Positions 10,005 to 29,231 of a stretch of DNA of 64,000 nt are shown in pieces. Both the position numbers and the translations under genes were made by a program. The notes under the pieces were generated by a model. That model was not told the DNA's origin. It ran no database searches and worked only from the letters and a program-made list of their open reading frames with translations. Each line of letters starts with the position of its first letter. Within the stretch, counting starts at the first letter, position 1. Origin of the DNA: Paraburkholderia megapolitana (lineage in GTDB: Bacteria; Pseudomonadota; Gammaproteobacteria; Burkholderiales; Burkholderiaceae); assembly GCF_007556815.1 (NCBI RefSeq), contig NZ_CP041743.1:1612001-1676000 (forward strand), in the 5' to 3' direction.

Positions 10005-11804
10005 ATGAAGATGTCGCGAAAGAAAATCGCCTTTCTGGGCGTGGGTCTTCTGGGGCTTCTGATCGTCGCCGGTATCGTCATTCAGGCGGTATGGCGGCCG
10101 TTCGGCAAGCACGGCAAAGTCAATACCAGCGAGATCGTTCTCGACATTCACCATCCCGATGCGCTGATCGATAGCGAGGCATTATCCCGGCTACCCGCCG
10201 ACATGCTGCGCGTGCCATTGCTGCACGACGTGCTCACTCAGGATTTCGTCGATTATTACGAATCCACCGATACCCGTCTTTCCGCCGACGGCGCATTGCG
10301 CCGTCTCGCCTTCGAACATCAGCTCGATTTTGGCGACCAGCTGATCCGGCGTGTTTTCGACGAACCGGCGCACGTGCTGCTGTGGCGTTCGCCGGACGGC
10401 CGGCTCGGCTACTGGATCATGTCGATGCGCCGCAACGGGCTCGCGAAACTGCTGCAGGGCCTCGGCAATGTCGCGGCCAGCGATACGCAGTTGAGCCAGG
10501 TCGCCAAACTGTCTGGCGACGTGCCGGTCTACGCCTTGAAGCTCGCGGTCGGGCGCACGCTGCTGTTCGCCACGAAGGACGACCGGCTTGTCGTGCTGTC
10601 CGCCCCGGGCGTGCTGCTCGGCACCGATGGCGCGTTGTTGAGCGAACGCGCCGATGTGGTCGACGACCTGCTGTCGTCGGGGCGCGACGACGCCGCTCAC
10701 GCGTTCCGGCTCGACGCCGCATCCGATCAACCCAAGGGACACCGGATCGTCGTGTCCGCCAACTATCTGTCGTTCGGCTACCAGACGTTTTTCTCCGGCA
10801 TCGAGGCGCTGCGCTTCGATCTCGCGTCGTCGGGCGGGGCGCCGGCCAGCTGGCAGACCGCGGCGCTGATCGATCCGGACCGCTTGCCGCAACAATGGAA
10901 CGGCGCGGACCTGTGGCACGCGCTGCCCGCCGGTCCCGCAGCCTGCGCGAGCCTGCCCGCCGACTGGAAGGGCGCCTCCGATCTGCTCGGCAAGGTGGTG
11001 TCGGCCGGCGCGGACGGCGCCGCGCAGATCGGCGACGCGCTGGCCGGACCGGCTGCCGTGTGCTGGTACGCGAAGTCGACGCTCGTCGCGCCGGTATTCG
11101 TGGCTCATCTGAAGAGCACCGATGCGAACGCGAACGCCGCGCTCAAAACCGTGCTCGGCAAGTCGTTCGGCGAAGTGATTGGCGCGTACGAAGCGCATGC
11201 CGCGAAGACCGACGGCAGCGACGGCTATCGCCGGTTGCCGGTTACGACACGTAGCCAGGGCGATGCCGTGACGCTCTGGCAGCGGCCGGTCAGCGCGCGC
11301 TCGGGTACCGCGCTGGCATCGAAAGCGCCGTTCGCCGCGCAGTTGTCCGCACAACGTTATTTCCCGGTCACGCTCGCGATGGCGCACGGCTATCTGATCT
11401 TTTCGCCGGATGCGCGGCTCGTCGACGACACGCTCGCCGTGCTCGACAAGCGCTATCCGGCGCTCGCCGATACGCTCGCGCCACAGCGCGTCTCGCGTAC
11501 GGTGCTCACGCTGACGCCGGCGGCCGCCGCGTCGCTGATCGAGCGGGAAGCCGCTTCCGCGTTGCCCGCCGATCAGGAAGCGATTTTCCGTAATGCCGCA
11601 CGCACGCATCTCGTGCCGAAGCTGCAGGCGCTCGCGCACTATCCGCCCGTATCGTTGAGCTTGCCGCAGACGTTGCCGTCGTCGTCGGGGTGGGTGCCGG
11701 TCGAGTGGTGGTTCGATCGCAGCGGTGGCGCGGCTGCTGCTGCGGCAGACGGTACCGCGGCGGCACGCGCGGCATGGGATCAACCCGGCGTCGGGGGCGA
11801 CTGA
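10005..11804 (+). CDS. yfaA: DUF2138 family protein (YfaA-like), membrane-anchored
   Basis: Protein of 599 residues matching the YfaA/DUF2138 family by its place in the yfa/mag gene set and by overall pattern. A single N-terminal membrane segment (about residues 8-29, [20 protein letters not shown]) follows a basic start, so the bulk is periplasmic. Family biochemistry is unknown. In Pseudomonas aeruginosa the corresponding six-gene macroglobulin operon encodes partners that hold MagD at the inner membrane. This protein would be one of those, by inference. It is the first gene of the operon. The next gene starts at GTG 11806, one base after its stop. The C-terminal 30 residues are Ala-rich. 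ATG at 10011 is an alternative start. Confidence 0.75.
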
Positions 11805-11805
11805 C

Positions 11806-12615
11806 GTGCGCGCGCGTTGTGCTTCGCGCAGCCCCTCGCCGCATGACTGCGCGGGCGATCGCGTCGACGGTTGCCTGGCTGCTCACGGAAGCGCTCACCC
11901 AGGCGGCCAGGCAAGCAACCGCACGCATCGCCACAGCAGGCGTACGTGGCTCACCGGCACAGCTACGGCGCTACTCACCGCGTGGTTCGCGCCGCACGTC
12001 TTCGCGCTATCCGCAACGACAGTCGCACCGGAACCCGACGCACTGTCGGCGGCACAATCGAACGCATTCCGCGCGTGGTTCGCCCGCATCGTCGACCAGC
12101 AGATGCGCCGTGGCCCAACGCCGCGCTGGACCCAGCGCGACTGCGCGGGCCTCGTACGTTTCGCCGCCGGCGAGGCACTGAAGCCGCACGACACACGCTG
12201 GCTGCGTGCCAACGGCATGAGCGGTGCAACCGACGCAAGCAGCCTGCCGCCCGAACTGCAACTGACGCCCACGCAACGCTCGCTCACCAACCGCTGGACG
12301 CGTATCGACGGCAGCACCGGCGCCTACGCGTCGGCGATCGCACTGATTCAACTGAACAGCCGTTTTGTCTCGAAGGATGTGAACCAGGCGCTGCCCGGCG
12401 ACCTGCTGTTCTTCGACCAGGGCGACGACCAGCATCTGATGATCTGGCTGGACCGCTACATCGCCTATCACACAGGCACCGTCACGCCGACCGATACCGG
12501 TCTGCGCGCGGTCGCCGTTTCCGACCTGATGCAATGGAAAGACTCCCGCTGGCAGCCGCTCGACGGCAATCCGAACTTCGTGGGTGTGTTTCGTCTGGCC
12601 TTTCTGACACCATGA
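11806..12615 (+). CDS. yfaT: DUF1175 family protein (YfaT-like), NlpC/P60-like fold, possible Tat export
   Basis: Predicted 269-residue exported protein of the YfaT/DUF1175 family. The catalytic-type pattern resembles NlpC/P60 cysteine peptidases: Cys113 in RDCAGLVRF, then GDLLFFDQ, then His210 in DQHLMIWL. Peptidoglycan-peptide or amide hydrolysis is therefore plausible but unproven. A twin-arginine-like signal SRRTWLT (residues 44-50) precedes a hydrophobic stretch ending HVFALSA. The long region before it is unusual, and GTG 11806 is the only in-frame start I find after the preceding stop. Its stop overlaps the start of the macroglobulin gene (ATGA at 12612-12615), so translation is coupled. 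Confidence 0.72.
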
Positions 12616-15600
12616 CCTGCCATTACGCTCCTGTCGATTTCGCTTCCCGTCGCCCGCGTTCACGCTTGGGCGCAGCCCGTGCGCTTGCGCTTAGCCTCAC
12701 GCTCAGTCTCGTACTGGGTCTGACGCTGGCGCTAGGCAACGCCGCGCCCGCCCGCGCCGACGACACCGCCGCTTCCGCCGACGACACCAACATCGCGCAG
12801 AATCCGACGCTGCAGCCCGCGGCGCCGAGCGGCTTCGAAACGCAGAAGATCGACGGTCAGCCGTTCTTTCTGCTCTCCGATGCGAGCTTCGGCAGCGACC
12901 AGCTCGCGCAGGTCCGCCTCGAAGCACCGGGCCGCGAATTCAAGGATCAGCTGGCGGGTTATGGCGGTGCGGACATCGTGGTCTACCGCGTGCCGAAGCC
13001 GATCGAATTCCTGAAAGCGCAAAAGAACCTGCATCGTCTGAACATCGCCCCGAACTATCAGGGCGAGGGCCTCGCGAATACGCTCGCCTACCTGTGGGAC
13101 CGCTGGATTACCGAAGCGCGGCGCGCGTGGCAGCGCGTGCTGTCGTTCGCGACGCGCAGCAAGGCCACCGAGTCCGAGCCGCAGCTCAAGCTCGGCGATC
13201 AGTTGGCGCAACCGAGCCACTTCGCGCAGAACATGCAGTTCGCGCCGCTGAAGGGCTACGACCTCGTCGGGCGCTTTCGCTATCCGATCTGGGATGCGAA
13301 GACGATCCAGCCGCCCAAGGGTGTCGAACTGGCCGGTAGCAGCAGCAACTTCATCGAAGCGAGTTCGGGCAACGTGATGATTCCGGTCGGCAAGCTGCCG
13401 CCTGGCCTGTATATCGTCGAAGCGATCATCGGCAACTATCGCGCGCATACGCTGCTGTTCGTGTCCGACACGGTCGCGGTTGTCAAGGCGGCGTCGAGCG
13501 GCATGCTCGTGTGGACCGCGCGGCGCGACAACGGCAAGCCCGTGCCCAATACGGCGGTGAGCTGGACCGACGGCGTCGGCGTTCTGCAAAGCGGCAGCAC
13601 CGGCAACGACGGCGCACTCGCACTCGACCACGTGAGCCCCGAGCGCAGCTATGTGATCGGCAGCGATCCGGCGGGCGGCGTGTTCGTGTCGGAGAATTTC
13701 TACTACGACAGCGAGATCTACAACACCAAGATCTACGCGGTTACCGATCGTCCGATGTACCGCCCCGGTGACCGCGTGTACGTGAAGTTCATCGGCCGTA
13801 CGTTCCAGAACGCGACGCAGTCGTCCGCTCCCGCCGAGGCCGACATCAAGCTCGACGTGCTTGATCCGAGCGGCTCGCCGATCTCGACCTCGACCACGCA
13901 TTTCGCGTCGGATACCGGCGCGCAGGCCACGTTCACCATTCCCGCCGATGCCACCGCCGGCGGCTACACGCTGCGCTTCGATTACAACGGTGATATCTAT
14001 GGCAGCGCGTTTCGCGTGGCCGAATACGTGAAGCCGCATTTCGACGTCAACCTGTCGATGGACAAGCCCGACTACGCGACTGGCGAGGCGCTGCACGGCA
14101 AGATCCAGCTGCGTTATCCGGATGGCAAGCCGGTGAAGGACAGCAAGATTTCGGTGACGTTGCGCGCGCAACAGGTGACGATCGTCGATGGCGAGCTGCG
14201 TTATGCGGGTCTCTTTCCGGTGAAACTCGAACAGCAGGAACTGGAGACCGATAGCGACGGCAACGCGAGTCTCACGCTGCCGGCCGCAAAAGAGCCGAGC
14301 CGCTACGCGCTGACATTGTTCGCGCGTGACGGCGCTGCCTATCGAGTACGTGTCACGCGCGAAGTGCTGATTGCGCGCGGGGTGACGCCGTATCGCCTCG
14401 CCGCGGCGAAATCGTTCTCGCAGCCGAAGGAGCGCGTCGATTTCACGCTGCAGGCGCTCGGCGCAGTCGATCCGTCCGCGCACGCGCCGGCGAAATGGGA
14501 ATGGGTGCGGCTCGAATCGCAGACGCACAGCGAGGGCACGATCGGCAACGCGAAGGCCGGCGGTACGGTGACCATTCCCGTGCAGTTCGACGAGCCGGGC
14601 TCTTACATGCTGTCGGTGAAGGACGACACGGGCAACCTGCTAGGTGCAACGAGCCACTGGGTGGCCGGCGACGGCGTGAAAGCGATACCGGGCAGCGTCG
14701 AGATCGTGTTCGATCGCGATCGTTACAAGATCGGCGATACGGCTGAAGCGCTGATCACGTTCCCACAACCCGTCGACGACGCGTTGCTCACACTCGAGCG
14801 CGACAAGGTCGAACATCGCGCGCTGCTCACGTCGGGAGCGGACTGGTTGAGTCTGCAACGCGTCGCGCCGTCGCAATGGAAGGCGCGCATCAAGGTCGAT
14901 ACGAACTTCGCGCCGAACATGACGTTCTCGGTGCTGTATGTGCACGCAGGCGAGTACGTGTTCCAGAACGCCGGCATCGTCGTCGTGCAACCGACCATCG
15001 ATCTCGACGTGAAGAGCGACAAGCCGGTGTACGGCCCAGGCGACACTGTGACGCTCGACCTGACCAGCGCGATGAACGGCAAACCGCTGCCCGCCGATCT
15101 GACGGTGAGCGTCGTCGACGAAATGGTCTACGTGTTGCAGCCGGAAATCGCGCCAAGCATTGTCGATTTCTTCTATCACCCGCGGCGTAACAATGTGCGC
15201 ACGTCGTCGAGCCTGTCGTTCATCACCTACGATCTAGCGCTGTCGTCGCTGCGCGGCGCGCCAGGTGGACCGCAGCGCGAGCGCTATAACGAGCGCGGCG
15301 TGAAGGTACTCGAGCGTCCGCGCCGCGACGATCAGGACACGGCCGCGTGGGAGCCCGATCTGAAGACCGACGCAAGCGGTCACGTGAAGATGACCTTCAA
15401 GATGCCCGATGCGCTCGCGCGCTGGCGCATCACGGTGCGCGCGGCTTCGGCCGACGGTATGGTCGGCCAGCGCACGGCGTATGTGCGTTCGGACAAGGCG
15501 CTGTATCTGAAGTGGAGCGGTCCGGCGCATTTCCGCGCGAACGACAAGCCGTCCATCGACATGCTGGCTTTCAACCAGGCCAATACCGATGTTCAGGCGG

Positions 15601-17462
15601 ACTGGATCGTCGAAGGCGGCGGCTTGTCGGTGAACCAGAAGGTCACGCTGAAGCCTGGTGCGAACTATCTGAAGCTGCCGGTCGCGGCGATGAAACCCGG
15701 TGTCGTGGATGCGACCTTGCGGCAGGGTGGCAAGGATGTCGACCGTTTGCAGACATCGATTGCACTCGATGCAACCGGCTGGCTCGATCTGCATCAGACG
15801 CCGGTCGCGCTCGATGCCTCAGGCAAGCCGCTGAATCTCGCCGCCGATGCTCAGGATGTCAGCGTGCGGTTGATGTCGAGCGGCGCGAGCCAGTTTGCGC
15901 GCGTGGCCGACGACCTGATCGCATATCCGTACGGCTGCGCCGAACAAACTTCGAGCCGGCTGATTCCGCTCGCCCTCGCGCACGATGCGTTGAGTCGCGG
16001 CGGCAGTGCAAGTACGAGCGCGACGCAAGGTGTCGAAGCGCAGCTGCGCAATCAGCGCCAGCGGCTCGCGCTGCTTGCGGGCGTCGGCGGTACATTCGGC
16101 TGGTGGGGCGATACGACCGGCGGTAGCTCGCTGATCACCGCCTATGCGTACTACGCGGACTGGCTCGCCAGTCGCAGCCTCGCGATCTCGCTGCCCGCGG
16201 ACAACTGGCAGCACGCGATGGACGTCTACCGCGATGCTGGGGCGAAGGAGCCGCTGCTGCATCGCGCGCTCGCGCTGTGGTTCATGCAGCAGATGGGTCT
16301 GCCGGTTACAACTCCGCTCTCGGGTGTCGCGCAGCAGTTGATGCAGGCACAGACGTCGAAAGATACGGCGACTGCTAGCGGTCCTGGCTTCGGCCCTGAA
16401 GACAGCATCGTGTTCGCCAACCCGGACAGCGCGCGCGGCACGCAGCTCGCGCTCGTGTTGACCGCTTACATGGCGCGTAGCGCTGCCGGCGTGCAATTGC
16501 CCGATGGTTTTGACGGAGCGGTGTCGGCGGCACGCGGCGCACTTGCAACCGATTCCGCGCCGCTCGTGCAAAGCCTGCTCGTGATGACGGGCGCAACCGG
16601 TGGTTCGGGCGCCGACGGCGCGGCACCGGTCGACGCGGTCGCGCTGCTCGCAAAAAGCAGCGCCTCGTATCCGACCTTCGACCGCGCGTTGACGCTACTG
16701 TGGTTGCGCAAGGCATTGGGCGGCGACGCCGACAGCACGCCGCTACCGGAGCTGCAAGGCGCCGGATGGCAGCGCAACACGACGCCGACCGGCGCAGCGG
16801 TGTGGAAGTGGACCGGCACCGGTTTGCCGCAGTCCGTCGATATCGGCGCAGTCCGGCCCGACGTGACGGCGCTCGTGTCGTACCGCAGCCGCGCGGCCGA
16901 TACGAGCCGCCTGCCGGTGACCGTCGAGCGGCATCTATACAAGCTCGTACCGTCCACGCCGGCCGCCACCGACAAGAAGGACGCCAAGAAGAGCGACACG
17001 AGCGACGCTGACGCCGCCGCACGCTTCACCTTCACGGCCGAAGCCGTGAAGCCCGGCGACGCGCTCGACAGCAACGCGCTCTATGTCGACGAAGTGACGC
17101 TCACGCCTCCGGCGAACACGGCCTACCAGTACGGCCTGCTCGAAGTACCGCTGCCGCCGGGGGGCGAAGTCGAGGCGACGAGCTGGGGCATCAGCATCGA
17201 TGGCTTGCCGGGTCCCGCCAGCGAGGGCGGCAGCGGTCCGCAGCCGTTCCAGCGCGCGGTTACCTATGAGATGGGCGAGCTGAACTACCATCAACCGGTG
17301 CCGCTGCTCGACCGCCGCGTCGCGTTGCGTCAGCTCGTGCGCTTCGGTTTGCCGGGCACGTTCGTCGTGCCGCCCGCGCGCTACTTCCGCATGTATCAGC
17401 CGGATGCGAAGGCGTTCGAAGGCGGCAAGAGCGATCGTCTGATCACGATGAAGATCGGTTGA
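12612..17462 (+). CDS. yfaS: bacterial alpha-2-macroglobulin (YfaS/MagD-like) with thioester motif
   Basis: Large periplasmic protease trap of 1616 residues. A signal peptide covers about residues 1-49 (hydrophobic [18 protein letters not shown], then APARA). The macroglobulin (MG) domains fill the N-terminal half; the segment [14 protein letters not shown] is a typical MG2 feature. The central MG/alpha-2-M domain includes [15 protein letters not shown]. The thioester domain carries [16 protein letters not shown], with Cys1109 and Gln1112 forming the CxEQ motif. A helical toroid follows ([13 protein letters not shown]), then a C-terminal receptor-binding-like domain. Cleavage of the bait region by an invading protease would trap it covalently. 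The start at 12612 overlaps the yfaT stop by four bases. No lipobox is visible, so anchoring probably needs its operon partners. Confidence 0.9.
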
Positions 17463-17473
17463 GTGAGCCAGCG

Positions 17474-19408
17474 ATGACATCGGTCCTGCGCGACACGCGT
17501 TCCCTGCTGGCCGGCACGATGCGGCCGGTCAGGGCGTGCGCGCTGGCGTGGGTGTCGACGCTGGTGCTGGGTGCCGGGGGGCTGCATCCGGCCGATGTGT
17601 TCGCCAGTGCAGCGGCACATGCTGAGGCGAGTGGCGTCGCGCACACGCCTCGCGTTGCTGCTGTTGCTCCTGTTGATCCGGCACCGGGTTTGGCGGATGC
17701 AAGCGACACAACCATTCAGGCCAGCCTGCCCGCAACGAACCGTATGTCGCTCAGTGGTTCGAAACCATCCGCAGAACCGCTACAGTTCGCGTGGCTGCGC
17801 GACGGGCGCGCGCAGTACTGGCGCATCGACAGCCGCGGTACCGTCGGCGATCAACTCTCGACACAGGCCGCGCAACCGCTACCCGCTACCGTCGAAACAC
17901 CACTCGGCAGCGTGTGGAAACTGTTTGTCTATGGCTACCTCGTGGATCGCGGTATCGCGACGCCCGATTACAACTGCACGGGCGGCGATCCCGAAGAGGT
18001 CTATTGCTGCATGACGGGTGGTCATATCGATCGCGAGCGCGCGCTGGTGCAGTCGTGCGGACTCTTCTTCGAACCGGCGCGTCTGCATATCGACGCCGCC
18101 GACTGGCGCAAATACTGGAGCGCCGCCGGCGCGCCGGCATGGTTGCGCGATCTGCGCGCGTTGCAGCCTGCGCAGCGGGTGGCCGTTGCCGATCTGCTGG
18201 CGGCGCTGCAGGCGATGCCAGCACGGCCACGCGAGGCCGCTTCGAGCACGCTGATCTCGGTGCTCACTAGCGGACGAGGCGAGGGCACTGTTGCGCTGTA
18301 CGGCAGCCTGCTGCGCGCAAAAACCTGGACGATGCCGGACCCGGCGAGACCCGGCGCTTCGATTGGCGGCGCGGCGGGCTGGCTTGCCGATGGCAGTCCT
18401 GTCTGGCTCGGCGGTCCGGGCGGTAGTGCGCGCGTGCTGGCCGCCGCGGCGCCGCGTATTGCGCCATTGCTCGCGCAGACCATCGTGCCGGACGATGCGG
18501 CCTGCGTCGTCGTCGATTTCTTCACGCGTTACCCGGTGCGTGAAGTGCTGCCCGTGCAAGGTAGCGCTGCTGTGCCCGACGGTCCGCTGACCGGCGCCTA
18601 TCGAGTCGGTTTTGCGAACGGCAACTGGCTGCGCATCGAGAGCCGCGGCGAGCTGTTGCTGCAGAGCGATCCTGGTGTGGCGCCGCGTATCATCGGTCGC
18701 TTCGGAATGAACGATTACATCGCGCGGGTCGTCGAGCGCGAAGGCGATGCGCGCGACGAAGAGGCCGCGAAAGCACTGGCGGTTGCCGCGCGCAGCTATG
18801 TGGTCCAGCACGGCACGCGTGAGCGCGGCTGTTTCCGCATCGACGACAGCAGCAGCACGCAGCGCGTGCTGGCTCATCCGGCGAGCGCAGGCGCCCGTCG
18901 CGCCGCCGATCTCACCGATGCGCTCGTGCTGACCGGGGTCCCGGTCCAGTATCACCACGACAAGGCCGCGGCCGGCCAGATGAGCTGGCTCGACGCGAAG
19001 GCTGCCGCGCAACGCGGCCTCACGTTCGATGCGATTCTTGCGCGCACCTGGCCGCAGGCCACGCTGACGTCGTTCGAAAGTCCGCTGGCTGGCGATTGCC
19101 AGCCGGTGGCCGGCGCGCGCGAATGGCTGCAGCGCAACGCATCGCTGTGGGCGCGGCGGCTTAACGACGAACCTGGCTACGAGACGCCCGATCTGCCCGC
19201 GGTCTGCGCAGTGACCGACGGCCGGCCGTATGCCGATGCGCAGCGCAACCGCGTGTACATCCACCGTCTGCGCAGCGAGGACGATCGCATCGCGCTTGCG
19301 CACGAATATATTCACCTGGCGTTCCAGCATCATCCGCGTGGACTCGATGAAGGATTCGTCGAGCGTACGGCGCGCGCGTTGATCCGCTCGGAGGCGACGG
19401 TCCAATGA
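17474..19408 (+). CDS. yfaQ: DUF2300 protein (YfaQ-like) with SxxK-, SpoIID- and zincin-like segments
   Basis: Exported 644-residue protein of the YfaQ/DUF2300 family, with a signal-like segment at residues 20-45. Three parts can be read. (1) Residues about 100-330 resemble a penicillin-binding transpeptidase: S146-V-W-K149, S194-C-G in ALVQSCGLFFEP, and K283-T-W where KTG is usual. (2) Residues about 380-535 resemble SpoIID: RVVEREG, AKALAVAARSYV, then GQMSWLDAKAAAQRGLTFDA. (3) Near the C-terminus is a zinc-peptidase motif HEYIH (His610-His614), followed by DEGFVE. Together they suggest work on peptidoglycan next to the macroglobulin. ATG 17474 is preferred; a TTG at 17459 overlapping the yfaS stop is possible. 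Domain readings are by eye. Confidence 0.75.
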   Translation: MTSVLRDTRSLLAGTMRPVRACALAWVSTLVLGAGGLHPADVFASAAAHAEASGVAHTPRVAAVAPVDPAPGLADASDTTIQASLPATNRMSLSGSKPSAEPLQFAWLRDGRAQYWRIDSRGTVGDQLSTQAAQPLPATVETPLGSVWKLFVYGYLVDRGIATPDYNCTGGDPEEVYCCMTGGHIDRERALVQSCGLFFEPARLHIDAADWRKYWSAAGAPAWLRDLRALQPAQRVAVADLLAALQAMPARPREAASSTLISVLTSGRGEGTVALYGSLLRAKTWTMPDPARPGASIGGAAGWLADGSPVWLGGPGGSARVLAAAAPRIAPLLAQTIVPDDAACVVVDFFTRYPVREVLPVQGSAAVPDGPLTGAYRVGFANGNWLRIESRGELLLQSDPGVAPRIIGRFGMNDYIARVVEREGDARDEEAAKALAVAARSYVVQHGTRERGCFRIDDSSSTQRVLAHPASAGARRAADLTDALVLTGVPVQYHHDKAAAGQMSWLDAKAAAQRGLTFDAILARTWPQATLTSFESPLAGDCQPVAGAREWLQRNASLWARRLNDEPGYETPDLPAVCAVTDGRPYADAQRNRVYIHRLRSEDDRIALAHEYIHLAFQHHPRGLDEGFVERTARALIRSEATVQ

Positions 19409-20286
19409 AACCTGTACTCCGCTCCACGATGCGATCGTTGCGCCGCCGCACCTGGGTGGGTGCGCTGCTTGCCGCTATGTTGCTGATACCGGCGGCGTTC
19501 GCCCAGGATGCACAGAAAGCGCAAAATGCCGCGCCCGCGACGGAAGGCGGCGCGCTCGCCGATCTCACCGACGCGTTCAACGGCTGGCGACACAGCGGGT
19601 TGACCAACGAAGGAGAGCGCTTCGTCGCCGCGTATCCGCGACCACCGGTCGATCGCGGCGAGCAGCGCTTTCGCACGCTAATCGAAGGACGGCTGAAACA
19701 CTTCGACAAAAAAGCACGCAAGCCGCCGACGCTCGTCGTCAACGGTACGCCGACACCACTCTACGCCGACGACGAAGGCAATTTCGCGCGCCCGTGGGCC
19801 TTCGGCGCAGGATCGAACAGCCTCGAGATCATCTCCGCCGACGGTAAAACGCATCAGCGCATGCAGTTCTACGAAGCGGACACCAGCAAGCCGCAGGCGA
19901 AATTGCGCGCGATCGTCACGTGGGACGATCCGCATGCGCAGGTCGATCTGCACGTCATCACACCCGACGGTCTGCACGCGTTCTTTGCGAACCCGACCTT
20001 GTCCGACGGCAGCGGCTTCGATGTGGATTCGGTGGATGGCGCGGGGCCGGGCATTTTCTCGTCGGCGGCGCCCGAGCACGGTACGTGGCTCTTCTTCCTC
20101 AACTACTGGGGCAACTTCGATTCGACCGGCTATAACTTCGATGCTGCCGCGCACGACCGCGACGTCATCACCGCGCGTCTCACGCTGGTGTTCAACGAAA
20201 ATACGCCGAACGAGCGCCGTGAAACGATGGTCGTGCCGCTGCGCAAGATCGGCGACCTGCAACTCGTCAAGAGCGAGCGACTTTAA
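19405..20286 (+). CDS. yfaP: DUF2135 family periplasmic protein (YfaP-like), first copy
   Basis: Secreted protein of 293 residues, with a signal peptide at residues 1-33 (LLAAMLLIPAAFAQ). The C-terminal half is the DUF2135 domain, readable as a beta-sandwich with an Asp-rich motif: WDDPHAQVDLHVITPDG, then FDVDSVDGAGPGIFS. A repeated segment ARPWAFGAGSNSLEI sits before it and recurs in the next gene. The start ATG overlaps the stop of yfaQ (ATGA at 19405-19408), so the genes are coupled. In P. aeruginosa small partners from this operon bind the macroglobulin. This protein is a candidate partner, by inference; function is otherwise unknown. Confidence 0.75.
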   Translation: MKPVLRSTMRSLRRRTWVGALLAAMLLIPAAFAQDAQKAQNAAPATEGGALADLTDAFNGWRHSGLTNEGERFVAAYPRPPVDRGEQRFRTLIEGRLKHFDKKARKPPTLVVNGTPTPLYADDEGNFARPWAFGAGSNSLEIISADGKTHQRMQFYEADTSKPQAKLRAIVTWDDPHAQVDLHVITPDGLHAFFANPTLSDGSGFDVDSVDGAGPGIFSSAAPEHGTWLFFLNYWGNFDSTGYNFDAAAHDRDVITARLTLVFNENTPNERRETMVVPLRKIGDLQLVKSERL

Positions 20287-20304: not shown

Positions 20305-21129
20305 ATGATGGATGCCCGCGCCTCGCGATGCATAGGATGGATAGCCGCCGTGCTGCTGCTTGCCGGCGCTTGCGCCGCGCAGGCAGATGACGTGGAGTTC
20401 AGCACGCCGGTGAATGGCTGGCGCAATACCGCCGGCGATACCTCGCGCTATACGCAGGATGTGCACTATCCGGCGGTCGCCGTCACGACGCCCGAAGGTC
20501 AGTCGGCGTTTGCGATGATCGCCGGGCAGATTCGTGCGACGCCGAAAAGGACCAATGGCGGGGGGGCGGCGGCGAAGAACGGGAAGAAAACGTCGGTGGC
20601 GACGATGATCGTCAACGGCACGGTGCTGCCGCAACGCATCGAAGAAGACGGCAGCTTCTCGCGCCCGTGGGCGTTTGCGGGCGGCAGCAACAGTGTCGAG
20701 TTGCGCACCGCGGATGGCACGAGCAAACGCATCCAGTTCTACGACGCGTATTCGAACAAGACGCGGCCGCGGTTGCGTATCGTGCTCGCGTGGGACACCG
20801 ATGGCACCGATCTGGATCTGCACGTCGTATCGCCGGATGGCGTGCACACGTTCTACGGCGACCGCGTCGCGCCGAACGGCGGCGCGCTCGACGTCGACGT
20901 GACGACCGGTTACGGTCCCGAGATCTATTCCACGCCCGCGCCGCTGCACGGCGCCTATCTCGTCTATGTGAACTACTACGGGCAGGGCGAGAGCGGCGCC
21001 GACATGACGGTCGCGCAGATCACGATCATCACCGACGAAAACACCCCGAACGAAAAGAGCGAAACGGTTGTTGTACCGATGCGCAAAGCGGGCGAGCTGA
21101 CGCTCGCGAAGAAGTTCGTCATACCTTGA
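20305..21129 (+). CDS. yfaP: DUF2135 family periplasmic protein (YfaP-like), second copy
   Basis: Paralog of the preceding gene: 274 residues, signal peptide at about 1-27 (AAVLLLAGACAAQA). It shares the block SFSRPWAFAGGSNSVELRTA and the Asp-rich WDTDGTDLDLHVVSPDG, then LDVDVTTGYGPEIYSTP. Both end in a stretch of the form ENTPNE followed by a short conserved tail. The ATG at 20305 has GGAA at good distance; the ATG at 20308 is an alternative. It lies 18 bases after the first copy. Two DUF2135 genes beside one macroglobulin gene match the six-gene mag operon of P. aeruginosa as I recall it. The two copies may form a pair or bind different partners. Confidence 0.75.
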   Translation: MMDARASRCIGWIAAVLLLAGACAAQADDVEFSTPVNGWRNTAGDTSRYTQDVHYPAVAVTTPEGQSAFAMIAGQIRATPKRTNGGGAAAKNGKKTSVATMIVNGTVLPQRIEEDGSFSRPWAFAGGSNSVELRTADGTSKRIQFYDAYSNKTRPRLRIVLAWDTDGTDLDLHVVSPDGVHTFYGDRVAPNGGALDVDVTTGYGPEIYSTPAPLHGAYLVYVNYYGQGESGADMTVAQITIITDENTPNEKSETVVVPMRKAGELTLAKKFVIP

Positions 21130-21163: not shown

Positions 21164-22261
21164 ATGGACCAGAACGCGGGGCAACGACCGTTACTCACTT
21201 ACGACGGCAATATCGGTGAGCTGTACGGCATCTTCATCAAGAACCTGCTGCTGACGATCGTCACGGTCGGCATCTATCGCTTCTGGGCGACCACGGCGCT
21301 GCGACGCTACGTGTGGTCGCGGATGCGCTTTCAGGATGAACGCTTCGAATACACCGGGACGGGCGGCGAGCTGTTCAAGGGCTTTTTGCTCGCGATGGGG
21401 ATACTGATCGGTTCGATGATCGTCGCGTTTGGGCTCTCTGCGATCCTTAGCAAGCTAACCGGGAGCGCGGCACTAGGAATGTTGCCGATAATCGTGCTGT
21501 ATGCGGCGATCGGCGTCTTCGCGGCCGGTGCGTATTTCAGCGCGCAGCGCTATCGCCTCAGCCGTACGGTGTGGTGCGGCATTCGCGGCGGCATGACCGG
21601 CTCGATGATGCGCTACGGTGTGCAGGCGCTGCTCTACGGCCTGTTGTGCATCGTGACGTTGTTTCAGGCGGTGCCGTGGGTGACCGTGCGGCTCGCGGAA
21701 CGTCGCATCAACGCGAGCAGCTTCGGCAGCGAACCGTTTCGCTTCCAGGGGCAGGCGGGTCCGCTCTACAAGGCGTTTCTGCTGAGCTTCCTCGGCATCG
21801 TCGTGTGGGGTGTCGTAGTTGGTATTCTTTTTCTCGGGCCCGCGATATCGCTCTTCTTCGCGCAACTCGGCGGGGAGCACCACGTGCCGACCAAGGTATT
21901 CGTTGCCTTTTTCTCGTTCTACGTGCTGTTTATCGTCGGCGCGCTGTTGATGCGCTGCTACTACATTGCAAAAGTGAGCCAGCACATTGTCGGCAACACG
22001 ACGCTGGGTACACAGCTGCGCTTCGGGACGAGCATCACCGGGCGGCGTTTGCTCGTCATCGTGATCAGCAACCTGGCAATCGTCGTGTTCACGCTGGGTC
22101 TTGGCTTCCCGATTGCGTTGAACCGAGTGATGCATTTCATCGCCGATACGCTGCTGGTGGAGGGCAAGGTCGATCCGCAGTCGCTTGGCCAGAGTAACGT
22201 CGCGGCGCCGCGCACCGGTGAGGGCGCGCTGAATCTTCTCGACCACGGCGGCGGCTTCTGA
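21164..22261 (+). CDS. yjgN: YjgN family (DUF898) integral membrane protein
   Basis: Polytopic inner-membrane protein of 365 residues. The N-terminus LTYDGNIGELYGIFIKNLLL and the segment VGIYRFWATTALRRYVWS are the DUF898 hallmark. A related segment, RFQGQAGPLYKAFLLSFLGI, recurs in the second half, so the protein looks internally duplicated. I count about six to eight membrane segments. Molecular function is unknown for the family. It lies 34 bases after the second DUF2135 gene, has an AGGGGAAA ribosome site, and overlaps the next gene by four bases. DUF898 genes paired with M48 peptidase genes are a recurrent arrangement in my memory of related genomes. Confidence 0.85.
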   Translation: MDQNAGQRPLLTYDGNIGELYGIFIKNLLLTIVTVGIYRFWATTALRRYVWSRMRFQDERFEYTGTGGELFKGFLLAMGILIGSMIVAFGLSAILSKLTGSAALGMLPIIVLYAAIGVFAAGAYFSAQRYRLSRTVWCGIRGGMTGSMMRYGVQALLYGLLCIVTLFQAVPWVTVRLAERRINASSFGSEPFRFQGQAGPLYKAFLLSFLGIVVWGVVVGILFLGPAISLFFAQLGGEHHVPTKVFVAFFSFYVLFIVGALLMRCYYIAKVSQHIVGNTTLGTQLRFGTSITGRRLLVIVISNLAIVVFTLGLGFPIALNRVMHFIADTLLVEGKVDPQSLGQSNVAAPRTGEGALNLLDHGGGF

Positions 22262-23280
22262 GCACCGATCGCCCGACGCGCTACTACGACGGCCGCAGCG
22301 CCGCGGCGCATGCCGCGACGCTTGCGTGGGGCGCGACGCACCTGTCGATCGTCGGCACGGACGGCGAACTCGCGCGCTGGCTGCTGACGGATGTCGTCGT
22401 CGGCGAGGTCGATCCGGACGGCGTTGTCATACTGTCGTGCAAAGGCGAAGCGGCGCGGGTGCTGGTCGATGCCGCGGCGCTGCCGGCTTCGATGGAACGT
22501 CGTCGCGCGCCCGCGTTCGGCTGGCTCGCATGGTTCGGCGTCGGACTCGCTGCGCTGGTGGTCGCGTTTCTAGTGATCGTGCGCGTACCCGCGTTCGCCG
22601 CAGCGTTGATTCCGGCGCGGTTTGAAAACCGCCTCGGCGACACGGTAGAGGCTTCGGTCGTGCGTCGACATCGGGTGTGCACGGGCGCTGCGGGGCAGCA
22701 GGCGCTCGAACAGCTCGAAGCACGTCTTGCGCATGCCGCGGGCATCGGGCAACCGGTGCGGCTCGTCGTGGTCGACGATGCGCGGGTCAATGCGCTGACG
22801 CTGCCCGGTACGCGGATGATCGTCATGCGTGGGCTGATCGAGCGAGTCGGCAGCGCAGATCAACTGGCGGGTGTGATGGCGCATGAGACTGCGCATATCG
22901 CGCATCGCGATCCGATCCGCGCGCTCGTGCGTAGCACGGGCATCCGGCTGATCAGCGTCGCGGTCGGCGTGAATATCGGTTTTATGGATATGTCGTCGTT
23001 TGCGGGGCAACTGGTACGGTTGTCGTTCAGCCGCGAGATGGAGAGCGCTGCCGATCACGATGGTGTTGCTTATCTGCAGGCGAGCGGTTTGCGCAGCGAC
23101 GGGCTCGCCGCGTTTTTTGCGATGCTCGGCAAGGGCGATCACGATGAGCGTGCGGCCACGTTCTTTTCCGATCATCCGGGTACCGCCGAGCGTGAGGCGA
23201 AGAATCACGGGTCGGCGCTGGGGGAGAGTGCGTTGACGGCGCAGCAGTGGGAGGCGGTGCGGGGGATGTGTGGGAAGTAG
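22258..23280 (+). CDS. M48 family zinc metallopeptidase, membrane-bound
   Basis: Peptidase of 340 residues. The zinc site is His209-Glu210-x2-His213 in MAHETAHIAHRDP, with Glu262 in SREMESAADHDG as the third ligand, the normal M48 layout. A membrane segment is near residues 86-110 (FGVGLAALVVAFLVIVRVPA). The start is unusual. The frame is open back to CTG at 22258, which overlaps the stop of the DUF898 gene (CTGA). The extra N-terminus (RYYDGRSAAAHAATL) looks like the conserved lead of this family. The first conventional start, GTG 22459, would remove it. It is the last gene of the operon. Likely role: membrane or periplasmic protein quality control. Confidence 0.8.
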   Translation: MSTDRPTRYYDGRSAAAHAATLAWGATHLSIVGTDGELARWLLTDVVVGEVDPDGVVILSCKGEAARVLVDAAALPASMERRRAPAFGWLAWFGVGLAALVVAFLVIVRVPAFAAALIPARFENRLGDTVEASVVRRHRVCTGAAGQQALEQLEARLAHAAGIGQPVRLVVVDDARVNALTLPGTRMIVMRGLIERVGSADQLAGVMAHETAHIAHRDPIRALVRSTGIRLISVAVGVNIGFMDMSSFAGQLVRLSFSREMESAADHDGVAYLQASGLRSDGLAAFFAMLGKGDHDERAATFFSDHPGTAEREAKNHGSALGESALTAQQWEAVRGMCGK

Positions 23281-25827: not shown

Positions 25828-26282
25828 TCGAGCGACTCCGTTCAGACGGTTCTGGGTATGTCGGATGATGGCGGCAAATCGAGTTGTGCATGAAGTATGG
25901 TGTTTGCCCTGCGGTCCATAAACGGGAGAATGAAGCCCTGCATCGGATCCGTTCCAGCTTTCTGGATTGTTCGATTGTCTCTCATCCGTCCGTCCCAAAG
26001 GTTGTACACGGCTAGCGCCTCATCCCGGTTCCCGCTACCTGGGGTTGCAGATCCCGAAAGCAGCGTGAAAACCCGCTCCCGAAGTTTCGATGCCCAGTCC
26101 GAACCTGTGGCACCAAAGTTGATTTCACTGTCGACGGACATACTGCGCTGATTCATGTTTGCGCTACCGAGCGTGATGAACACATCATCTATGATCATCA
26201 GCTTCGAATGAATGTAGATTTCGCGATACGCCATCTGGTTACCGGTAGTCCCCCCGCATTTAACGGAGTTCAGAAGTAGAGG

Positions 26283-27110
26283 TCATGCCGCGATGGGCAA
26301 CTTCTGTTTCGGCGGTACGCCGCCGATAGCCGTGTTCGGCCGCTCGTGATTGTATGACCATAGCCACCTGGTCGCATACTCCTGAACATCGGCCACCGTC
26401 TCGAAGAGGTAGTGGGCGAGCCAGTCGTATCGAACCGTTTTGTTGTAACGCTCGATGTACGCGTTCTGTTGCGGCTTGCCGGGCTGGATAAACTGCAGAA
26501 CGATGCCGCGTCTCATGGCCCAGTCCCTGAGCGCATCGCTGACATATTCCGGCCCGTTGTCGCAACGGATCTTCAGCGGCTTGCCGCGCCATTCGATCAC
26601 CTGATCCAGCGACCGGATAACGCGTAGCGCAGGCAACGAGAAGTCCACCTCGATACACAGGCCTTCCCGGTTGAAGTCGTCGATCACGTTGAACAGCCGG
26701 ATGCTACGGCCATCAGCAAGCTGATCGTGCATGAAATCCATTGACCAGCACTCGTTCAGTGCTTGCGGCACGGCCAGCGGTTCCGGCTGCTCACGCACCA
26801 GCCGTTTGCGTGGCCTGATCCGCAGATTCAGCTCCAGTTCGCGATAGATGCGATAAACACGTTTGTGATTCCAGGTAAAGCCCTTGACATTGCGCAGGTA
26901 CAAGAAACACAGGCCGAAGCCCCAGTTGCGCTGGTTGTGCGTGAGTCTCACAAGCCACTCGGCGATCACGCTGTTTTCCGCGCAACGCTTTGCCCGGTAA
27001 CGGTAGCAGGTCTCGCTTACGCCGAACGCCTCACAGGCCGCCCGTACGCTCATTGCCCGTTCTCTGACTGCACGCATGGCCATCTCGCGGCGACGAGATG
27101 GCCTCACCAC
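26283..27110 (-). CDS. IS3-family transposase OrfB (DDE integrase domain)
   Basis: Catalytic part of the IS transposase, 275 residues as read from GTG 27110. The DDE residues are visible: first Asp in CWSMDFMHD, second Asp in IRCDNGPEY, Glu in [12 protein letters not shown]. The N-terminal HTH_21-like segment is [13 protein letters not shown]. It is normally made as an OrfAB fusion by -1 frameshift at the A7 run in the end of orfA, with which it overlaps by seven bases. No disabling change is seen. Confidence 0.93.
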
Positions 27111-27370
27111 TTTTTTTCAAGCGCCTCGCGCACCACCTCGGCCTTGAGTCGCTCTTCAGCGTACATCTTTTTGAGTCTCGCGTTCTCCGCCTCAAGCTCC
27201 TTCATCCGGGTCATCAGTGCCGCGTCCATGCCGCCGTACTTCGAGCGCCATTTGTAGAAGCTCGCGCTGCTCATCCCGTGCTCGCGACACAACTCCGGAA
27301 CGGGTGTTCCGGCTTCGGCCTGCTTCAAGATCCCAATGATCTGGCTTTCCGTGAATCTGGACGTCTTCAT
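27104..27370 (-). CDS. IS3-family transposase OrfA (HTH)
   Basis: DNA-binding part of the transposase, 88 residues. HTH_8 pattern [19 protein letters not shown], then [15 protein letters not shown], followed by a coiled-coil/leucine-zipper segment ([19 protein letters not shown]). It ends LEKKW beside an A7G slippery site, the usual programmed frameshift point that yields the full transposase. It starts 71 bases inside the element end. Confidence 0.93.
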
Positions 27371-29231
27371 GCAAAATTCCCTGTCAATCTGCTGCTAGAA
27401 AATTCTACCTTGAACACCCGTTAATTCGCGGGGGACTACCTACCCACCACTCCACTGGTGCGTAACCGTGCAATGCTTACTGTCAGACCGATCGCGCTTT
27501 GCAGCGTCGCCAGCTTCTCGGGATCGAAAGTATTGTTACCCTTGGCGTCTACATATTTTTGCTTCGTCTTGCCCGCCTGTGACAGTTTTGCCTGATCTTG
27601 CCAGGCGTCGCCGTGACCAAGCTCGGCCATCGTATCGTAGGTGCGAGGGACCATACCGGGGTCCTGGGGGTGTGGCGTGACGACATACAGGTACAGCATG
27701 GGCGCATCCTGCTGCGGCTTGTTTGCCAGTTGCGCCCACTTATCGTGAAAATTCTTTCGTTCCTGCTTCAGGTGCCGCGCGAACTCCGGGTAGAAGAAAT
27801 ACTGGTTCTCCATGTAGATATAGTTGCGCGCGAAACTCGCCGACTGGAAGTAGAGACTCTTGATCGTTTTCTCGTGCTCGTGTGGCTGGGTGCGCACGAT
27901 CTGCACCTGGTGCGAGGGATCATCCTCCTTACTGGGTACTCCTGGCGGCAGTTCCGGTAGTTCTGTCGTTTTCCATGCATCCGGGGCAAACAGGTTCCAG
28001 CCGCGCTCGAAATTCTGGTGCAACCGCTTCAGCGCCTTCCCGACTATCCGGCAAGCGTAGTCCTGATACGGATTGACATGTTTATACGGTGCAGTGCCTG
28101 GAGAGCCAGCCGGGTCCTGTGTTTCCTGCTCGTGCTTGTGTTCATCATCGACATACGACTGGGCCCATTCCTCTCGAAGGGGATCGTCGATATCGTGAGC
28201 GGTTCTGTCCCAATAGTCCGTGATCGAATTCAACCCCATCACGTATCCCTTTGCGTTATATCCCTTTGCCTTCTTGGCATCGCCGGAGTACGCGTAATCG
28301 ATCAGAATGGGTTTTTGATGGTGCGTTGCGTAGTCTTCGAGAAGATTTTCTTCATCCACATAACCCTTGTCGCCTTTATCGCTGTGTGTGCTTGGGGCAT
28401 CCTCTTCCTTCAGTTTGTGCGCCATCAACGACTTGACATCCTTGCTTGAGATACTCCGCAGAACAATCTGCAGCTTCTGGTTCTTCGTCAGGATGCCGCT
28501 TAGCTTGCTCTCGCCATCTGGCAAATTGCGCTTCCACCAGTCAATACACCATTGAGTGCGAGCCTCATTTGCATAGGGAGGGGCTTGAAGCAGATTATTT
28601 TGAATCCAGCTATCCCAGGAAACCGGGAGGTCAGTGAGGCCTGGCATACTGTTCTGCTTGCGCGATGCCCGCGGGTCGAACCAGATCAGCAATCGGACGG
28701 TGACAGGATTTTTCGCACGTTGGGTGATCTGCTCGAGCAGCGCGCCGTAGACGACGCCACGTGGCCACGTGACTGGCTGCTTCTGGGGTATTGGAGGAAG
28801 TTTGGGAGCTTGTACAGGCACAGGAGAGGCGAGTGACCCAAGTATTCCCTTGTCTCCGAAAATTGCTTTGTCGAGATCAATTATCGCCTGCTTCGGGTAC
28901 GGCTCTCCAACACCGGCTGGTGCTTTGGGACCGCGCCAGATCTCCATGCCGGGATCAAAGCCCCAGCAACAGATATCAACTGTCCCCTGCGCGCCCATGA
29001 GATCTTCGGCTATCTGCTGGAACCCTTCTTCGCCGCAGACGAAGAACTGGAGATCATTTCCCATGGTCGGCTTGGCGTCCTTGTCGACCTCCGTTTCCAG
29101 CAACCACTGAACGGACCCCTGTGCGTTCTGACCGGCTTCGGCAATGGCAACGTCCATCGCGTTATGACTGTCGAGCGGTAACTGTGCCACTTTGTTTGCC
29201 CCTGGTTGTTTGAGTTGCGTCGATGTCCGGA

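Follow-up and report, generated by a model that had tools for sequence, protein, structure and literature searches.

YfaQ (MagE) of a type II macroglobulin operon reads as a composite of penicillin-binding-like, SpoIID-like and zinc-peptidase-like modules

Introduction

What does a protein that seems to carry three cell-wall or peptidase themes do beside a bacterial alpha-2-macroglobulin, a trap for proteases? The question is raised by a stretch of 64,000 nucleotides from Paraburkholderia megapolitana (contig NZ_CP041743.1, positions 1,612,001 to 1,676,000; here the window, with positions counted from its first letter), part of a host genome of 7.6 Mb in three contigs. Its yfaQ gene sits between a macroglobulin gene and a DUF2135 gene, in the window as in the loci compared. 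The original prediction read the product as a single protein with penicillin-binding-like, SpoIID-like and zinc-peptidase-like parts, coupled to the macroglobulin in a surveillance-and-repair module that had not been described. We have found that the three-part composition and the macroglobulin link are borne out by the sequence, through profile comparisons against shuffles, residue invariance in 166 homologues and the order of the operon. From this anatomy, which the sequence supports, we infer a mechanism, folds for the first and the third module, a substrate, a possible sensing role and, with them, the surveillance-and-repair function.

The system itself has been described. YfaQ is MagE of the mag operon, that is, of a type II alpha-2-macroglobulin operon. 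In Pseudomonas magE is PA4488, magD is PA4489 and magB is PA4491 (Zouhir et al. 2018, PMC5764988), and a published table gives PA4488 as YfaQ, PA4489 as YfaS and PA4491 as YfaA (PMC10977779), so that YfaA is MagB and, by gene order, YfaT is MagC. Escherichia coli YfaQ has been presented as bipartite, with a transpeptidase-like N-terminus and a SpoIID-like C-terminus, and by prediction as periplasmic with a Sec signal (mSystems 2025, PMC12282094). The words zinc, metallo, macroglobulin, HEXXH, MagE and YfaS do not occur in the main text of that paper. The claim of novelty falls therefore for the operon, for MagE and for the first two modules, which are published, and stands for the zinc domain. 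As far as we searched the open-licence literature, this domain, the short form that we call mini-YfaQ, the co-occurrence with YfaT and the joining of these lines are new. MagE (PA4488) and E. coli YfaQ are orthologous to the window protein, with the same macroglobulin-adjacent gene order and the same motifs; identity to the E. coli protein is 41% over 539 residues, and the N-terminus of the window protein is the longer one.

Results

The YfaQ protein and its invariant residues

The gene, its modules and their key residues are located as follows.

17474..19408, + strand: yfaQ (magE) orthologue, 644 amino acids, ATG at 17474; DUF2300 family (PF10062, 164.5 bits against a cut-off of 25)
17519..17623 (residues about 16-50), + strand: probable Sec signal peptide region, recognised by eye from a basic start, a hydrophobic run and A-x-A
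17777..18508 (residues 102-345, approximate borders), + strand: penicillin-binding-like (serine transpeptidase-like) domain, with a profile-profile score above all 200 shuffles
17909..17920, + strand: SVWK (146-149), SxxK-type motif
18053..18061, + strand: SCG (194-196), at the SxN position
18320..18328, + strand: KTW (283-285), proposed KTG equivalent, placed by order and motif
18692..19057 (residues 407-528), + strand: shortened SpoIID-like domain
18740..18742, + strand: Glu423, aligned by profile with catalytic Glu101 of Clostridioides difficile SpoIID
19064..19393 (residues 531-640), + strand: zinc-peptidase-like (gluzincin / M78-like) domain, from profile comparison and a weak M78 match
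19301..19315, + strand: HEYIH (610-614)
19349-19351, + strand: Glu626, also invariant
19361..19363, + strand: Glu630 (ExxA), likeliest third zinc ligand from the alignment to M78

The coordinates, the length and the residue numbers first proposed for this protein were correct, and the residues named lie where they had been placed. Among the named loci, Paraburkholderia acidicola has the nearest YfaQ (88% identity). There is an alternative ATG start at 17519. Signal-peptide-like N-termini were seen by eye in three homologues as well (P0122, P0163 and P0218, the last being the Pseudomonas aeruginosa protein), and together with eight invariant cysteines they fit a periplasmic site, to which the protein would have to be exported. 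When solved structures were searched by phmmer with the single sequence, nothing beyond weak PsaL matches came up. The Pfam model matches two stretches of YfaQ, as if DUF2300 were in tandem; a comparison of their profiles detected no relationship (score 16.1; 12 of 100 shuffles as good), so that the tandem-repeat reading looks like an artefact of the model.

Invariance was assessed over 166 homologues, 86 database proteins and 80 from loci, a partly redundant set in which the overlap was kept; the check excluded three of the 80 loci, in which the match was broken or ran into a contig end. Identical in 166/166 were S146, W148, K149, S194, C195, G196, K283, T284, E423, R440, H610, E611, H614, D625, E626 and E630. 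Position 285 is W in 161, Y in 4 and F in 1. The family-wide conservation that the original prediction expected of S146, K149, H610, E611 and H614 was thus found for all five.

The penicillin-binding-like module

A profile of residues 98-345 was compared with 35 PF00905 (transpeptidase) domains of the host and twelve related genomes, against 200 column shuffles. The score was 35.9 (pairwise expectation value, E, 2.7e-4); the shuffles scored 14.5 +/- 2.4 with a maximum of 25.6, and 0/200 were as good. The alignment takes in 73 columns around SxxK and SCG, laying SxxK on SxxK and SCG on the SSN of penicillin-binding proteins (PBPs). KTW falls outside it, and its role as KTG is assigned by order and invariance. 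The SpoIID and zinc parts, set against the same PF00905 profile, gave E 0.69 and 0.3. With the PBP2-type set alone the N-terminal profile reached E 0.0026, a score attained by 0/200 shuffles, and a weak NCBIfam PBP2 match (E 0.13) covers SVWK and SCG. PF00905 is absent from the 18 Pfam families matched by any of 86 YfaQ-family members. The Asn of SxN is replaced in 166/166 (the Ser is kept), and so is the Gly of KTG (KTW/Y/F). The likeness to a class B PBP transpeptidase domain of the PBP2 type consists in SxxK and the Ser of the SxN position, in register within a weak profile match; YfaQ differs in having SCG for SxN and KTW for KTG, and it stays below every curated cut-off.

The SpoIID-like module

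Pfam SpoIID (PF08486) matches residues 407-486 with 33.1 bits against a cut-off of 23, and all 86 members of the diverse YfaQ alignment at E <= 1. In the host genome YfaQ is the sole SpoIID match. The family profile, searched against solved structures, found three SpoIID sequences at E 0.0018 to 0.019, the best being 4rwr. Mutation of Glu101, the C. difficile residue on which Glu423 falls, abolishes the activity of that enzyme (PMC6221140); the catalytic Glu of Bacillus subtilis SpoIID is E88. The stretch GQMSWLDAKAAAQRG is collinear with the C-terminal motif of the solved SpoIID chains, and alone it is not significant. The two motifs are separated by about 44 profile positions in YfaQ versus about 170-190 residues in SpoIID, which indicates that the module is shortened. 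In agreement, the full-length SpoIID/LytB model TIGR02669 gave 24.8 bits, below its cut-off of 83.3, with the middle segment missing. Compared with SpoIID of Bacillus and C. difficile, the Pfam match, the aligned catalytic Glu and the collinear N- and C-terminal motifs are shared, whereas YfaQ lacks roughly 125-150 residues between the motifs and is fused to two other domains.

The zinc-peptidase-like module

The C-terminal profile was compared with 13 of 14 fetched M78 (IrrE-type) loci, the remaining one having no usable HExxH frame. It scored 30.2, while shuffles that preserved HExxH gave 15.1 +/- 2.7 with a maximum of 23.9, and 0/200 were as good. E630 aligns with the ExxA glutamate of M78, the position of the predicted third ligand. 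The single YfaQ sequence reached 14.6 bits with Pfam M78, below the cut-off of 22 (E 0.029). Against solved structures the domain profile matched MJ1213 chains at HELLH with a non-significant E of 0.23, and chance-like angiogenin matches ranked above or beside them. The Peptidase_MA_2 reference matched neither this domain nor the controls. The C-terminus resembles M78 / IrrE-type gluzincins in its HExxH and downstream ExxA, found in register, and differs from them in being apparently secreted, in two invariant cysteines and in falling below the M78 cut-off. Its zinc-peptidase-like identity is supported against shuffles, and on this ground it may bind zinc and act as a peptidase.

The motifs assigned from the letters hold up in each of the three modules: SVWK and SCG align as SxxK and a degenerate SxN, in a domain whose profile match exceeds the shuffles, with KTW as the proposed KTG equivalent by order and motif; the SpoIID pattern announced for residues 415-530 is recovered by Pfam, with a C-terminal motif that is collinear though not significant alone; and the HEYIH with a downstream Glu expected in residues 610-630 is there, with two candidate glutamates, 626 and 630, and an M78-like match.

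A short form with the zinc module alone

DUF2300 was found in 15 genomes, and six of them belong to one other class, in which 6/48 genomes match. We take this class to be Magnetococcia; a search with one of its proteins names a Magnetococcales bacterium. In these six genomes the YfaQ slot is occupied by a protein of 125-158 residues, made up of an apparent signal peptide and the zinc domain only (mini-YfaQ). Read from its first possible start, the mini-YfaQ open reading frame (ORF) overlaps the macroglobulin stop in all four loci that show the end of that gene, and YfaP follows directly. The minis are 31-40% identical to the zinc domain of the window and share with full-length YfaQ C542, C578, H610, E611, H614, P621, E626, E630 and R634; the HExxH set is present in 24/24 sequences of the zinc-domain alignment, the six minis included. 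Neither a SpoIID nor a YfaQ N-terminal part was found elsewhere in the six genomes (78-100% complete) at E <= 0.001. A split gene was considered and rejected, no separate modules having been found in the six genomes, while two full-length genomes searched alongside did match. The zinc module is then what the operon keeps, and this suggests, from the comparison of sequences, that the zinc domain and not the wall-related parts may be the indispensable piece or working core.

In the mini-YfaQ operons (L029-L034) YfaP can carry an N-terminal LprI lysozyme-inhibitor domain, over the cut-off in 3/6, below it in 2 and absent in 1. It looks as if this domain (L030-L034) replaced the peptidoglycan-type modules absent from YfaQ.

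The macroglobulin operon

The window has the operon composition of a type II macroglobulin, with the following genes around yfaQ.

10005..11804, + strand: yfaA (magB) orthologue, DUF2138, with an N-terminal hydrophobic stretch; found in 80/92 loci, the other 12 being cut by contig ends
11725..12615, + strand: yfaT (magC) orthologue, DUF1175, weakly NlpC/P60-like; magC by gene order, with the true start downstream of the mechanical ORF start
12612..17462, + strand: yfaS (magD) orthologue, alpha-2-macroglobulin with a CAEQ thioester motif, identified by Pfam, thioester alignment and the naming of PA4489
19405..20286, + strand: DUF2135 protein, first copy (magA position), resembling the gene that precedes yfaA in Pseudomonas
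20305..21129, + strand: DUF2135 protein, second copy (yfaP / magF-like), from Pfam and locus comparison

By tblastn around 92 loci the same order was recovered, with YfaS in 86 (upstream of YfaQ), YfaT in 82, YfaA in 80 and YfaP in 92 (downstream), the missing ones falling at contig ends. Over 398 Pseudomonadota genomes DUF2300 (over the cut-off) and DUF1175 occurred in the same 15; a sixteenth genome with DUF2300 (G009), below the cut-off and with five stops, was dropped from this count. YfaT is weakly similar to NlpC/P60, with E values of 2.8e-4 to 2.6e-3 for three organisms that stay below the cut-off, and its Cys140, His237 and His249 are invariant in 82/82 loci. A 2023 classification places DUF1175 among inactive, peptidoglycan-binding families (PMC10318531). 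The control genome of Thermotoga maritima had DUF1175 and macroglobulin matches and no DUF2300 match, so that a pairing of YfaT with macroglobulin may exist without YfaQ outside Proteobacteria.

The macroglobulin of the window, of 1616 residues, has CAEQ at residue 1109, whereas P. aeruginosa MagD is without CxEQ (PMC5764988). The thioester motif was present in 71/83 aligned loci (near-duplicates kept; two of 85 rows that do not cover it were left out) and missing from E. coli, Citrobacter and several Pseudomonas loci. The statement that type II lacks the thioester does not fit most of the operons sampled, including this one. Type I macroglobulins occur with PBP1c (PMC5764988), and there too the macroglobulin gene adjoins a penicillin-binding-type protein; PBP1c is however a full peptidoglycan synthase, and YfaQ a composite below PBP cut-offs. 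The host genome has a second macroglobulin (C1:2714088-2718118), about 3 kb from a same-strand transpeptidase-domain protein, and this pair is probably the type I/PBP1c arrangement.

Some further features of the neighbourhood were observed. The first DUF2135 gene downstream of yfaQ (19405-20286) is 49-56% like a gene that comes before yfaA in Pseudomonas loci (for example L135), a resemblance across positions that makes the magA-position gene seem to have moved within the operon. After the operon come a DUF898 protein and an M48-type peptidase (21164-23280), matched in 12 and 11 of the 92 loci (one M48 match, in L031, is distant, and many loci are too short to tell). At 25842-29190, on the - strand, a gene that by eye looks to be of phospholipase D type is split into two parts, which flank a transposase-like ORF (26283-27110).

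Discussion

Of the readings considered, the likeliest in our view, with a probability of about 0.45, is that MagE/YfaQ is a periplasmic protein of three modules in which a zinc core processes or licenses a macroglobulin component, while the other two bring this activity to damaged peptidoglycan or gate it there. After export, the zinc module would cut, or conformationally license, MagD/YfaS or one of its partners in the macroglobulin complex. The SpoIID-like module may recognise the bare glycan strands of damaged peptidoglycan, bare glycan being the substrate of SpoIID enzymes (PMC6635528), and the PBP-like module may recognise stem peptides; in the full-length family, which is most of the family sampled, both would place or gate the zinc activity at the damaged wall. 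The processing role is suggested by the mini form and by the magE phenotype, since loss of magE greatly changed the amount of MagD and gave larger forms, and seemed to its authors to prevent MagD processing (PMC5764988). Placement at the wall is suggested by the domain types and by the magD phenotype: magD protects against the peptidoglycan-targeting effectors of the type VI secretion system (T6SS) VgrG3 and, to a limited extent, Tae1 (Nature Communications 2025, PMC12663445).

Several observations weigh against this reading. MagE was reported to make no stable complex with MagD and, in work cited by the same paper, to be cytoplasmic; the missing 100-kDa form of MagD is linked there not to magE but to magB, with magC named as well in a legend though not in the text, so that the two disagree on whether loss of magC removes that form (PMC5764988). 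There was no protection by magD against the peptidoglycan effector TseH, and it was dispensable against B. thailandensis (PMC12663445). On the side of the sequence, none of the FtsI-type, class A and OXA-type sets was significant by itself (E 0.17, 0.075 and 0.29; 64/200 shuffles reached the OXA-type score), and no curated transpeptidase model of Pfam or NCBIfam, nor any curated peptidase model, passed its cut-off with YfaQ. The PBP-like site may be dead, because SCG and KTW depart from the classical motifs. The solved structures searched with the whole YfaQ profile yielded nothing besides SpoIID chains up to E 10.

YfaQ could instead be an enzyme of peptidoglycan remodelling, its PBP-like part trimming or transferring stem peptides, its SpoIID part cleaving bare glycan and its zinc part acting as an endopeptidase, with shared regulation or defence accounting for the macroglobulin link. 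In E. coli, cells deleted for yfaQ are wider, and the deletion resembles those of mepS, mepK and nlpI, with a profile similar to that of peptidoglycan and membrane genes; the authors of that work suggest that YfaQ takes part in the turnover or assembly of peptidoglycan (PMC12282094). In YfaQ the motif residues are invariant, and YfaT, with its faint NlpC/P60 likeness and a DUF1175 called peptidoglycan-binding (PMC10318531), would suit such a setting. We regard it nevertheless as unlikely: the operon is present where the macroglobulin partner genes are, six genomes keep it without both wall-related modules, loss of magE acts on MagD (PMC5764988) and the SpoIID module is short. Rather improbable, in our view, is a protein with three catalytically inert modules that helps the macroglobulin to fold and to reach the membrane, as a scaffold or chaperone in the periplasm. 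The changes from SxN to SCG and from KTG to KTW would agree with it, as would the failure to pass any peptidase cut-off, and Zouhir et al. proposed for MagE a chaperone or signal-peptide role (PMC5764988). However, the Ser, the Lys, the HExxH and both glutamates are unchanged in 166/166, and the HExxH set persists in six minis of 31-40% identity, which argues against inertness because inert copies would be expected to drift.

The signal-peptide role suggested for MagE would make it a cytoplasmic factor in the processing of the macroglobulin's signal peptide. This would account for the larger MagD forms of the magE mutant and for the reported cytoplasmic location (PMC5764988), but it is very improbable given the signal-peptide-like N-termini, that of P. 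aeruginosa included, the Sec signal predicted in E. coli (PMC12282094), and the invariant cysteines and wall-type domains. Quite improbable too, and resting on analogy, is a soluble periplasmic counterpart of BlaR1 that senses damage: bare glycan, together with acylation of Ser146 by uncrosslinked stem peptides, would turn on the zinc peptidase, which would cleave the macroglobulin and arm the trap at the breach, and Magnetococcales-type operons would have kept the protease and replaced the sensors, some of them with LprI on YfaP. In BlaR1 and MecR1 a single polypeptide does carry both a gluzincin and a domain of penicillin-binding type (PMC6925264). They are likened here by domain type only, being membrane proteins, of which BlaR1 cleaves a repressor, whereas YfaQ looks soluble and adds SpoIID.

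Type II bacterial macroglobulins are without a settled function, and the paper on protection by magD against the T6SS left the mechanism open (PMC12663445). In MagE two sequence signatures of peptidoglycan type stand beside a candidate site for a zinc peptidase, whose residues are invariant, and this ties the macroglobulin to the cell wall. Single residues (S146, E423, H610/E611) offer handles on who processes what, and the mini-YfaQ genes point to the zinc module as the first one of interest for function.

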